A stretch of DNA of 64,000 nucleotides, taken from Streptomyces sp. TG1A-60. Its GTDB lineage: Bacteria > Actinomycetota > Actinomycetes > Streptomycetales > Streptomycetaceae. A program made the position numbers and the translations under genes. Below are positions 55,458 through 57,987 of the stretch, piece after piece (the first letter of the stretch is position 1; the number at the start of each line of letters is the position of its first letter). The stretch is taken from assembly GCF_037201975.1 (NCBI RefSeq), contig NZ_CP147520.1, positions 4,960,001 to 5,024,000 of the forward strand, read 5' to 3'. The notes beneath the pieces were generated by a model. It ran no database searches. It saw only the letters and a program-made list of their open reading frames with translations, and had not been told where the DNA came from.

Positions 55458-56413
55458 GCTCCCCGCACCTCCTCCGCCAGCGCCAGCGCCTCGTGGGCCA
55501 TCGCGGTCGTCGCGTCCAGGCCGGTCATCATCAGCGGCACGGCCCGGCACCGGATGCCCGCGGTCTCGACGCGCTCGACGGTGCCCGCGTCGACGGTGTC
55601 GACGAGCCAGCCGTCGAGGAGCCCGGAACCGTAGTGCTCGGCGACGGCCGCCGCCGTGGACTCGACGCCGACGGCGGCGAGGACCTTGTCGGCCATACCG
55701 CGCACGGGCGCGTCGCCGACGATGGGGGAGAGGCCGACGACCGGCACCCCGGCCTCGGCGATGGCCTCCCGGATGCCGGGCACGGCGAGGATGGTGCCGA
55801 CGGAGACGACGGGGTTGGACGGCGGGAAGAGGATCACATCCGCCTCGGCGATGGCCTCCAGGACCCCGGGCGCCGGCTTCGCCTGCTCGGCGCCGACCGG
55901 CACGATCGCCTCGGCCGGTACGGAAGCCCGCAGCCGCACCCAGTACTCCTGGAAGTGGATCGCCCTGCGCTGACCGTCCTGCTCCACGGCGACATGCGTC
56001 TCGACGCGGTCGTCGGTCATGGGAATCAGGCGTACCCCCGGCTTCCACCGGTCGCACAGCGCCTCGGTGACCGCGCTCAGCGGATACCCGGCGCCGGTCA
56101 TCTGGGTCCGCACGATGTGCGTGGCGAAGTCCCGGTCGCCGAGCCCGAACCACTCGGGCCCGACGCCGTACGCCGCGAGCTCCTCCTTGAGATGGAAGGT
56201 CTCGTCGGCCCGGCCCCAGCCCTGCTCCTCGTCGATGCCGCCGCCGAGCGTGTACATCACCGTGTCGAGGTCCGGGCAGACCTTCAGCCCGAAGAGGTGG
56301 ATGTCGTCCCCGGTGTTGCCGATGACCGTGATGTCCGCGTCCGGCACGGCCCGCTTCAGACCGCGCAGGAACCGGGCACCACCGATGCCGCCTGCCAGAA
56401 CCACAATGCGCAT
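55454..56413 (-). CDS. fbiA: 2-phospho-L-lactate/phosphoenolpyruvate transferase of F420 biosynthesis
   Basis: FbiA (CofD) joins the phospho-lactyl or phospho-enolpyruvyl group from the activated GPP donor to Fo, giving (dehydro-)F420-0. The 319-residue protein has the family start [19 protein letters not shown], the substrate loop [31 protein letters not shown] and [13 protein letters not shown], with the overall length expected. ATG 56413 is the natural start. The stop overlaps the fbiB TTG. It is about 95 bp downstream of the cysteine dioxygenase gene on the same strand, so read-through is possible, but no functional link is evident. Confidence 0.95.
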
Positions 56414-56507
56414 GGAAACAGTGTGTCAGCCGTCAGGCTGACTCGTTGAGGGGTGGTGGTCGGGTGACGGGTGGGACAGTCCCGCAGGCGGGTACGACAA
56501 CGGGTCG

Positions 56508-57005
56508 TCAGGCCGTGACGGCCGCCGCCCCCGTGGCGCAGGCCTTCGTGTGCATCGGCATGTCCGTCAGACCGGGGTAGTAGACGTGCAGGCTGACGGC
56601 CGGCTCCAGGGTGTCGTTGACGACCTCGTGCGCGTAGCCCGGCGCGAACACCCGCTGAGCGCCGGCGCCGAGGACCCGCGTGCCCCGGTCGGTGCGCTCG
56701 GTCAGCGTGCCGTCCAGCACGGTGAGCACGCCGGAGGAGCCCCCGTGGTCGTGCGGCCCGGTGCCCTGGCCCGGCACCCAGGACAACAGCCACACCTCGT
56801 AGCCGGGGCCGGTCCGCAGCCGGTGGTACCAGCGGGTCGTCGCGTCGTACTCGACGAGGTGCTCCCACTGGGAGCGGTCCTCGGCGACGGCACGGGCCAG
56901 CCCGGCGAACTCGGCCACGGTGAGCGGGTGTTGGCGCGGCGCCTGGAGGAGGTGGGGTACTTCGAGAAGGTCGCCGGCGATCTGGAGGTCGCTGTCGCTG
57001 TTCAT
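56508..57005 (-). CDS. Cysteine dioxygenase (cupin)
   Basis: The iron enzyme oxidises L-cysteine to cysteine sulfinate, removing excess cysteine. The 165-residue protein has the cupin ligands H85 and H87 in GTGPHDHGGSSG and H126 in YAHEVVND, and a Trp/Tyr-rich core (WYHRLRTGPGYEVWLLSW) typical of bacterial type I thiol dioxygenases. 3-Mercaptopropionate dioxygenase is an alternative substrate assignment. ATG 57005 lies behind GAGGA at long spacing. About 157 bp upstream on the same strand ends a short reading frame rich in Cys codons, so expression is probably tuned to cysteine supply, which would also support cysteine as substrate. Confidence 0.9.
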   Translation of the reverse strand: MNSDSDLQIAGDLLEVPHLLQAPRQHPLTVAEFAGLARAVAEDRSQWEHLVEYDATTRWYHRLRTGPGYEVWLLSWVPGQGTGPHDHGGSSGVLTVLDGTLTERTDRGTRVLGAGAQRVFAPGYAHEVVNDTLEPAVSLHVYYPGLTDMPMHTKACATGAAAVTA

Positions 57006-57161
57006 GAAGGGGGTGGTCCTCGACGGAGAGTGCGTGCGGGATGGCCGGATGTCGCGAGCCGGCCGCCCGGATCAACGGACGGAACGGGTGCCCGGTTGCG
57101 GGCGGAAGGGGAACGGCAGCCGAGCCGGGACGGGCTCAGTGGCAGCCGGAGCGCGCGTGGC

Positions 57162-57254
57162 TCAACAGCTGGAACAGCAACAGCGACAGCTACAGCGAGC
57201 AGCACCGAGGGACCCGGCGGAGCGGGCCGAGGCGAGTGCCAAGTTCGCGAGCAT
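57162..57254 (-). CDS. Putative cysteine-rich leader peptide (30 codons)
   Basis: On the minus strand ATG 57254 opens a 30-codon frame, MLANLALASARS..., whose last ten codons read CSCRCCCSSC before TGA: six Cys codons, five of them TGT, which is rare in this GC-rich genome. It ends 157 bp before cysteine dioxygenase. TTGACA lies at 57290-57285 and a -10-like TGTCCT at 57267-57262, so the ATG falls at the expected transcription start and the message would be leaderless. An in-frame GTG at 57260 is possible. Short polycysteine leaders that respond to cysteine are established in mycobacteria. Stalling at the Cys tract when charged Cys-tRNA is scarce would signal to the downstream gene; the mechanism here is inferred. 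Confidence 0.72.
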   Translation of the reverse strand: MLANLALASARSAGSLGAARCSCRCCCSSC

Positions 57255-57261
57255 GCCCACA

Positions 57262-57290
57262 AGGACACCGGCTCACACCTCCGCTGTCAA
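57262..57290 (-). promoter_or_regulatory. Promoter of the leader peptide and cysteine dioxygenase
   Basis: A consensus -35 TTGACA (57290-57285), a 17-bp spacer and TGTCCT (57267-57262) lie on the minus strand, with seven bases to ATG 57254. The -10 matches the TANNNT consensus poorly at its second base, but the spacing is ideal. Confidence 0.55.
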
Positions 57291-57620
57291 CTTCACGTCC
57301 GGTATGTGGATGCCGTTTCACCTCTTCCGGTGCATCCGCGTGATGAAAGGTTTGTGCCGGGGGTGTCCGGGAGACATGGCGCACAACCGGGCACACCACC
57401 GGCTCGCGTCGATGGAGGGCCGTCGGCTCCCCGGAGCGAGTCGGCTCGAACGAGCCGGAACGAGATCGAACTCCTGGGCGTCCTTTGTCGTAGGGAAGGG
57501 AGCACCCACCCGGAACCCCCGTCGGCCGCCGGGCCGCTGTCAGGTTTATGCCGATTTGAACACTTTCCGCATAGCCTTGGTTCCGCAGAGTGAATAAGGG
57601 GCTCAATAGCAGATCTCGGC
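57291..57620. other. Divergent interval between cysteine dioxygenase and whiB
   Basis: About 330 bases with no gene I can support. The right part is AT-richer (57540-57620) and may hold an additional whiB promoter; the left part has minus-strand open frames without codon bias. Confidence 0.5.
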
Positions 57621-57650
57621 TTGACTCGCCCGTAGCAGCACACTTGTAAT
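57621..57650 (+). promoter_or_regulatory. whiB promoter
   Basis: TTGACT (57621-57626) and TGTAAT (57645-57650) are separated by 18 bp, a near-consensus vegetative promoter. The start point would be near 57657, leaving a leader of about 65 bases. A GTGTC word at 57658-57662 (complement GACAC, the core bound by WhiA) overlaps the start point. Confidence 0.6.
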
Positions 57651-57723
57651 TTCACTCGTGTCGTTCAGCCGAAATCGGTAACGGCCGCACGACGGGGACG
57701 CGAAAGACGGACGAGGGGCGCAG

Positions 57724-57987
57724 ATGACCGAGCTCGTGCAGCAACTGCTGGTCGACGACGCGGACGAGGAACTCGGCTGGCAGGAGCGCGCACTGTGCGC
57801 CCAGACCGATCCCGAGTCCTTCTTCCCCGAGAAGGGCGGCTCGACCCGCGAGGCCAAGAAGGTCTGCCTCGCCTGCGAGGTCCGCTCCGAATGCCTTGAG
57901 TACGCCCTCGCCAACGACGAGCGGTTCGGTATCTGGGGCGGTCTGTCGGAGCGCGAGCGCCGCCGCCTCAAGAAGGCGGCGGTCTGA
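57724..57987 (+). CDS. whiB: Iron-sulfur sporulation regulator WhiB
   Basis: WhiB binds a [4Fe-4S] cluster through four cysteines and works with WhiA to switch sporulating hyphae from growth to septation. The 87-residue protein has C25, C48, C51 and C57 (RALCAQTD, KKVCLACEVRSECLEY), the GIWGG turn in RFGIWGGLSERERRRLKK and a basic C-terminus; as far as I recall it matches S. coelicolor WhiB throughout. ATG 57724 follows GAGGGGCGCAG. It stands alone with its own promoter at 57621-57650 and no terminator of note downstream. Confidence 0.97.
   Translation: MTELVQQLLVDDADEELGWQERALCAQTDPESFFPEKGGSTREAKKVCLACEVRSECLEYALANDERFGIWGGLSERERRRLKKAAV

Follow-up and report, generated by a model that had tools for sequence, protein, structure and literature searches.

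Why should a gene for the breakdown of cysteine be preceded by a short reading frame that ends in a run of cysteine codons, and what could such a frame do for the expression of the gene? The question arises in Streptomyces sp. TG1A-60, within a window of 64,000 nucleotides (NZ_CP147520.1, positions 4,960,001 to 5,024,000; coordinates given below are those of this window). A first-pass annotation had proposed here a cysteine-rich, apparently leaderless leader peptide upstream of cysteine dioxygenase (CDO), and had expected that completion of leader translation would favor CDO expression. Our own reading, to which we assign a probability of about three in four, is that of a leaderless polycysteine translational attenuator of CDO, in which the sensor codons would double as the blocking strand. 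Conservation, geometry, complementarity and codon phase were obtained by comparison of loci, and the opening energies were modelled.

The leader and its surroundings

The leader ORF (57162..57254, minus strand) runs over 30 codons from an ATG at 57254 to a TGA at 57162 and encodes the peptide MLANLALASARSAGSLGAARCSCRCCCSSC, with CSCRCCCSSC as its C-terminus. Re-reading of the sequence confirmed six Cys among the last ten codons, five of them TGT and one TGC, as had been claimed. These codons form a tract (TGT AGC TGT CGC TGT TGC TGT TCC AGC TGT, 57165..57194, minus strand) with a TGT-TGC-TGT phase at codons −6 to −4. Comparison of the leader peptide with NCBIfam and Pfam yielded no family, and an Rfam search gave one match only, far under its gathering score and inside CDO.

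The presumed regulated gene encodes a type I CDO of 165 aa (56508..57005, minus strand; PF05995, E 1.8e-18), with its ATG at 57005. The assignment as cysteine dioxygenase held, and the distance of 157 bp given with it had to be corrected to 156 nt. This intergenic stretch (57006..57161, minus strand) is C-rich and G-poor (75 C, 42 G) and contains the likely Shine-Dalgarno (SD) sequence of CDO, GAGGA, at 57017-57021 of the minus strand. On the other side of the leader, a −35-like TTGACA (57285..57290, minus strand) stands 30 nt from the start codon, a distance of 30 or 31 nt in relatives. It is followed after 17 nt by TGTCCT (57262..57267, minus strand), a weak −10-like element, and after another 7 nt by the leader ATG; the arrangement TTGACA-N17-TGTCCT directly before the ATG, as described earlier, agrees with these coordinates.

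Across the CDO promoter region from the leader lies a divergent frame of 87 residues (57724-57987, plus strand), which we take to resemble a WhiB-family Fe-S regulator. Two cysteine-linked genes would then share one intergenic region.

Conservation of the leader

A search with a leader profile, in which 40 candidates per genome were scored, gave matches at E ≤ 0.1 in 144 of 199 genomes. Since many of the weak matches did not lie beside CDO, the CDO loci were read directly instead. They were collected with CDO and not the leader as query, and 30 loci that had been fetched with the leader (L031-L060) were excluded. All 30 best CDO loci of the same genus had the frame. A further 60 CDO loci were chosen from genomes with an absent or weak leader-profile match (E 2.4e-7 or worse); 59 of them had a Cys-ending frame, whose N-terminus was in many cases unrelated (for instance MPATSAP..RGFRSAVQARCCCCCSSC).

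A TTGACA followed at 30 or 31 nt by an ATG (GTG in one locus), opening a frame with at least three Cys among its last 14 residues, was found in 148 of 156 loci. These comprised 113/115 loci of the same genus (two repeat a locus), 35/39 loci of other genera of the family, where the matches L190 and L200 are long and doubtful, and 0/2 loci outside the family. Among the four misses in other genera are an 88-base fragment (L202), a locus with only two Cys (L191) and one with TTGACT for TTGACA (L196), the latter two explanations resting on our reading of the printed sequence. Two other-genus genomes have a second CDO copy (L207, L208), and neither copy was preceded by such a frame. In a second sample, made up of the 80 best named Streptomyces genomes, 67 of them absent from the first set, frame and geometry were present in 80/80.

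Chance occurrence was assessed on the upstream regions of the family. A Cys-ending frame starting with ATG or GTG was present in 147/153 real regions, as compared to 127/3060 simulated regions, which were first-order chains built from the same regions, and to 0/153 on the opposite strand. The TTGACA geometry was present in 144/153 real and 0/3060 simulated regions. The first-pass annotation had staked its proposal, among other things, on a frame conserved together with its Cys codons in related genomes, and the proposal passed this test. Comparison across loci supports a real, conserved leader ORF with Cys codons upstream of CDO, which is probably leaderless.

Outside the family, 5/20 CDO loci had some Cys-ending frame within 660 nt, and only in L187 and L188 did it lie less than 200 nt from the end of the stretch. 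We judged only that of L187 (G437), a CDO locus of another family, to be plausible; its upstream frame ends in CRALCLCR and is a possible independent case. A separate observation concerned L145 (G370:C1:5166498-5167022, minus strand), where a Cys leader is present and the CDO match came in two pieces. Since both pieces share one open frame of 186 residues, they point to an insertion and not to a break.

Proposed start of the transcript

The base immediately before the leader start codon was C in 145/148 loci, and this preceding C, together with the fixed distance from TTGACA, is as expected for a start codon at +1. The −10-like element of relatives had T at position 1 in 117/148 and at position 6 in 139/148 loci. 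TGTCCT itself is a poor −10, without A at position 2, and a consensus promoter scan of 56400-57750 gave no site, neither at TGTCCT nor elsewhere. In view of this weak −10, the leaderless start is kept here as an inference: judged from the conserved geometry, the leader is probably leaderless, with a transcript that would begin at its start codon.

The same geometry was found at an ilvL-like leader of Streptomyces sp. TG1A-60 (L296, G000:C1:2390144-2390183, minus strand). Its leader MRTRILVLGKRVG lies 31 nt after TTGACA and is identical to the IlvL peptide of S. lividans, which the accessible part of PMC8079986 reports as a leaderless transcript. L296 is a useful positive control for the leaderless geometry. 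At another site of this genome (L290, G000:C1:247647-247685, minus strand), a frame with four Cys, MWCSRGCCPRFVSGVRWLACSAVRP, was noticed after TTGACA-N30-ATG.

Predicted pairing of the cysteine codons with the CDO start

A segment of 16 nt within the Cys tract of this genome (57172..57187, minus strand), the candidate blocking strand, is complementary to a target strand that comprises the final base of the CDO start codon and codons 2 to 6 (56988..57003, minus strand). The helix has 16 contiguous pairs, one of them G-U, and a predicted energy of −28.5 kcal/mol. Folding of the transcript also paired the Cys tract to the CDO start.

For the relatives, the last 33 nt of the leader were scanned against sliding 20-nt windows along the transcript, such short windows being chosen because the best sites were scattered when no loop limit was set in the duplex program. 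In two leader groups of 44 loci each, the duplex energy had an isolated minimum at the CDO start, with −22.3 and −24.8 kcal/mol, compared to roughly −5 to −15 kcal/mol at offsets at least 9 nt away. The minimum fell within −6 to +6 of the CDO start in 40/44 and 39/44 loci of the two groups. In 67 further genomes, scanned over offsets of −60 to +30, it fell within −3 to +6 in 64/67. The first 33 nt of the leader, put through the same scan, showed no minimum at the CDO start. The longest uninterrupted helix, G-U pairs allowed, was at least 11 bp at the CDO start in 64/80 named genomes, versus 0/640 control windows inside CDO. Loci of the same genus that have no ATG at the aligned start had their minimum at the start in only 9/21 cases, and in a mixed group of other loci it was found at the CDO start in only 7/37. 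When the two partners were swapped between species, duplex energy changed from −26.1 to −25.5, the own partner being better in 60/88 loci. Swapping thus costs little, and co-variation inside Streptomyces is weak.

We also considered sequestration of the SD sequence by the leader and rejected it as a general feature. Where an SD-like motif was present (107 loci), it paired mostly within the intergenic stretch (0.55), with values of 0.011 for the leader before the Cys codons and 0.04 for the Cys tract, and the position of the leader ribosome hardly altered SD pairing in 102 loci; exceptions in the genera g120 and g116 appeared only in the helix search. The AGC codons 3 and 5 of CDO had likewise been a candidate proof of an RNA constraint. 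We do not use them as such, since at other conserved Ser sites of CDO the codon class is nearly as invariant.

In other genera of the family the Cys-rich end of the leader is kept, and the target can move to the SD region. The tract of genus g120 (eight loci) pairs with the SD through CAGGGACA and TGTCCCTG in four loci and through AGGAACG and [C/T]GTTCCT, a matched change, in two, in one of these as second-best helix. Of the remaining loci of this genus, one pairs in the manner of Streptomyces and one has no such helix among its best two. Genus g116 pairs GCTGTGTTGT[C/T] with GACGACACAGC in 4/7 loci, in an 11-bp helix that begins at the SD and stops one base short of the start. Over all 35 other-genus loci, most had no helix at an assignable start among the best two, and several had no assignable start. 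Leaders of the type ..LRRAASALC.. in these genera may be akin to other actinobacterial sulfur leaders; a search for such a peptide in the genome of Streptomyces sp. TG1A-60 gave a single weak match (E 1.83) inside an open frame of 549 residues.

Codon phase and the role of cysteine

Cys codons were numbered from the leader C-terminus, and a first count was limited to loci that passed an end-pattern filter. In these, the Cys codon was TGT in 78/81 at −6, TGC in 59/64 at −5, and TGT in 98/101 at −4 and in 100/102 at −1. The 80 named genomes, counted unfiltered, gave the same pattern, with TGT in 76/79 at −6, TGC in 62/63 at −5, TGT in 69/70 at −4 and TGT in 79/79 at −1. The first-pass annotation had pointed to the excess of TGT. 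It is real when set against the 24 coding-like ORFs of the window, which use TGC 74 times and TGT 11 times, but it turned out to be position-specific and not a general richness in TGT. Beyond positions −6 to −4 and −1 the phase was indistinct. Upstream positions of the second leader group were mixed (TGT 18 and TGC 21 at −8; TGC 17 and TGT 22 at −7), and an unfiltered count at −5 of this group gave TGC 32 and TGT 7.

Such position-specificity suggests RNA pairing, and not rare-codon use alone. The alternation of TGT and TGC is what pairing with AAC AGC GAC AGC GAC demands, and in 73/88 loci the real duplex was stronger than the mean of its Cys-codon permutations. One might then regard the frame as a by-product, with bases that matter only as antisense to the CDO start and an incidental cysteine, the TGT/TGC repeats complementing AGCGAC. 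The phase at −6 to −4 does track pairing. At position −5, however, Cys TGC, which forms a U-G pair, was found in 62/80 genomes and Arg CGC, which would pair better, in 12/80. Retention of Cys TGC in spite of this better-pairing codon suggests that Cys itself is selected. The Cys-rich end furthermore persists in other genera with a different tract and target, or with no pairing at all. We therefore hold the by-product reading to be quite improbable; both the bases and the amino acid of the Cys tract look selected.

Another way to account for the cysteines would be a nascent Cys-rich peptide that is itself sensed, through metal, thiol or redox state, and stalls the ribosome. In the leader variants found, the Cys run indeed forms the C-terminus or lies close to it. 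The N-terminal two thirds, however, vary between groups (MLAN.., MPAT.., MSEQ..), unlike in known arrest peptides, and we give this proposal very little credence.

Hairpins and transcription attenuation

A hairpin, P1 (57211..57228, minus strand), was predicted within the leader ORF, ahead of the Cys codons. Among 47 different sequences, taken from 108/110 loci, 252/282 cells were paired, versus 231.3 ± 2.9 in shuffles, with a maximum of 246 in 1000; the best-pairing position was taken where a locus offered several. Pairing of P1 was preserved through compensating changes. In the MLAN group alone it amounted to 79/96, which is not above shuffles. A possible second hairpin, P2 (57143..57172, minus strand), would form over the leader stop codon from CAGCTG..GAGC and GCTCCGGCTG. 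It was predicted in many relatives, with a mean z of −0.90 over 147 loci (one locus counted twice) and a mean pairing of 0.66 and 0.46 in two Streptomyces groups; it was absent from the minimum-energy folds of this genome's own leader (L001). As the leaders vary in length, RNAalifold was uninformative on alignments of whole leaders.

These structures raise the question whether control might be exerted on transcription: the stop-codon hairpin, or Rho acting on the C-rich intergenic stretch, could end transcription before CDO, with the position of the leader ribosome in control. Windows around the stop codon were more stable than shuffles in all three groups, and the intergenic RNA, with 48% C and 24.5% G over 147 loci, has a bias like that of Rho-loading sites. 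Rho has also been proposed for mycobacterial cys leaders, as set out in the accessible part of PMC1262725. However, no terminator-like site was found in 56400-57750, a T-rich stretch (5 of 7) occurred in only 38/147 and 25/80 intergenic regions, and P2 is missing from the predicted fold of the very leader under study. By both the terminator scan and the T-run counts, an intrinsic terminator with a T run between leader and CDO, as in trp-type attenuation, is not found here. Termination would, moreover, leave the pairing between Cys tract and CDO start unexplained. We consider transcription attenuation clearly unlikely.

Proposed mechanism and direction of control

We propose translational attenuation along the following lines. 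Transcription would begin with the leader ATG, give or take one or two bases, and ribosomes would translate the leader, the Cys codons acting as sensor. When free of ribosomes, the nucleotides of the Cys codons would pair with the CDO start region, between the last part of the start codon and codons 6-7, and prevent initiation. Once a ribosome dwells on the Cys codons, the blocking strand would be removed and CDO could be translated. Repression by pairing and the response to Cys-tRNA are, like the leaderless start, elements that we infer.

The modelled cost of opening the CDO start, averaged over 87 loci, was 14.6 kcal/mol with no ribosome and 12.2-15.1 kcal/mol with a ribosome upstream of the Cys codons. 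It fell to 7.9, 6.5 and 8.2 kcal/mol with the ribosome on the first, second and last Cys codon, respectively, and was 9.9 kcal/mol with the ribosome on the stop codon. As the cost falls with a ribosome on the Cys codons, the block is lifted in the model. For this genome the corresponding values were 18.6 kcal/mol without ribosome, 13.0, 7.4 and 11.3 kcal/mol on the first, second and last Cys codon, and 10.4 kcal/mol at the stop. The order of states is less clear here, since opening costs more with the ribosome on the first Cys codon than on the stop codon.

These energies did not support the idea that a completed leader favors CDO expression. Because the conserved pairing sets the Cys tract on the CDO start, the best-opening modelled state is a ribosome on the Cys codons, although ribosome traffic at high cysteine could still open the start, if less strongly. 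The modelled anatomy favors an ON state when ribosomes dwell on the Cys codons, opposite to the earlier logic. In the simplest direction, a stall at low charged Cys-tRNA would turn CDO on; the alternative is that ribosome traffic at high cysteine does so. The simplest direction is paradoxical for an enzyme that consumes cysteine, and hard to justify when Cys-tRNA is short: the anatomy predicts opening at slow reading of the Cys codons, the physiology expression when cysteine is plentiful. The more specific reading, in which sensed Cys codons are antisense to the first codons of CDO in Streptomyces, or to the SD in some other genera, and stalling turns on a cysteine-degrading gene, is one we advance tentatively, at somewhat short of an even chance.

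The same pairing could also be used in the alternative direction. At high cysteine, frequent leader traffic and slow termination would keep the CDO start open, and at low cysteine it would be closed, which keeps the physiological logic of the first-pass annotation. A ribosome on the stop codon indeed lowers the mean opening cost from 14.6 to 9.9 kcal/mol, by more than 0.5 in 84/87 loci, and in this genome the stop state (10.4) opens the start more than the first-Cys state (13.0). Over the 87 loci, however, the CDO start is easier to open when the ribosome stands on the first or second Cys codon than when it has reached the stop codon (7.9 and 6.5 versus 9.9), the first-Cys state being below the stop state by more than 0.5 kcal/mol in 55/87 loci and the reverse holding in 23. 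Stalling should presumably also outlast passage.

Expression data on a relative have been reported: in the accessible part of PMC7181669, Streptomyces SCUT-3 on feather medium showed cdo1 up 50.2-fold and cdo2 up 8.3-fold. Induction on this cystine-rich medium speaks for opening by traffic, but it could fit either direction, and the correspondence of the gene copies is not given in that part of the paper. All in all, we regard opening by traffic at high cysteine as rather unlikely.

Comparison with known systems

The blocking strand of erm-type translational attenuators is not known to be built of the sensed codons. What they have in common with the CDO leader is that stalling of a leader ribosome decides whether the downstream start is usable; their signal is a macrolide (both after the accessible part of PMC11264731). 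Leaderless amino-acid leaders have been described in Streptomyces itself, namely in S. lividans TK24 (PMC8079986, in part), and the present genome encodes an IlvL peptide identical to the one listed there. The portion of that paper available to us names eight leaders (Leu, Trp, Ala, Ile, Met, Thr), none of them for cysteine or CDO. The S. lividans MetL peptide given there, MSTTSDRTPATEATTTPGARCMCRRMCAF, carries three Cys toward its C-terminus; cysteine, not methionine, might be what it senses.

Mycobacteria, P. acnes and B. longum have known or predicted Cys leaders (PMC1262725 and PMC4633059, both in part). In particular, Cys leader peptides were predicted before the cys operons of Mycobacterium and P. 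acnes and before cbs of B. longum (Seliverstov et al. 2005, PMC1262725, accessible text). They share with the CDO leader runs of Cys codons near the stop and the lack of a terminator. They differ in that Rho was proposed and no pairing; in its accessible passages on cysteine that paper names no Streptomyces case, and the words cysteine dioxygenase do not occur in its main text. In our literature search, in which subscription journals were thinly covered, no report of a Cys leader of CDO was among the matches listed.

The closest counterpart are the polycysteine leaderless short ORFs of mycobacteria (Canestrari et al. 2020, PMC8764745, via PMC9031893, PMC13236596, PMC9094748 and PMC4633059, each in part). 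For the cases in M. smegmatis, the accessible part of PMC13236596 names translation attenuation as the mechanism, with base pairing of the uORF hiding the downstream SD. Both in mycobacteria, as far as these sources go, and here, a short, apparently leaderless ORF that ends in Cys stands at the 5′ end of a cysteine-metabolism transcript. In the family studied here, the Cys codons are clustered before the stop and the place ahead of a cysteine/sulfur gene is conserved, the gene being a catabolic one. Pairing of the uORF with the downstream SD or start was found in silico in most Streptomyces loci and in some loci of two other genera, most other-genus loci being without it. CDO expression turned on by slow reading of Cys codons would parallel the translation attenuation described, in the accessible part of PMC13236596, for mycobacterial cysteine genes. 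The CDO leader would thus work like a polycysteine translational attenuator; its membership in this class is provisional, since two defining features, the leaderless start and the cysteine response, are at present predicted.

Two differences stand out. The mycobacterial short ORFs precede cysteine biosynthetic or sulfur genes in the sources available, whereas the leader of the Streptomycetaceae precedes a cysteine-degrading gene. In the latter, moreover, it is the Cys codons that show complementarity to the target start; the mycobacterial short ORFs were compared here by their partial descriptions. It is this predicted complementarity between Cys tract and CDO start that appears to be new. If our reading is correct, cysteine-responsive translational attenuation, known from the biosynthetic genes of mycobacteria, would also act on a catabolic gene throughout the Streptomycetaceae, and one and the same stretch of codons would serve as both sensor and repressor strand.
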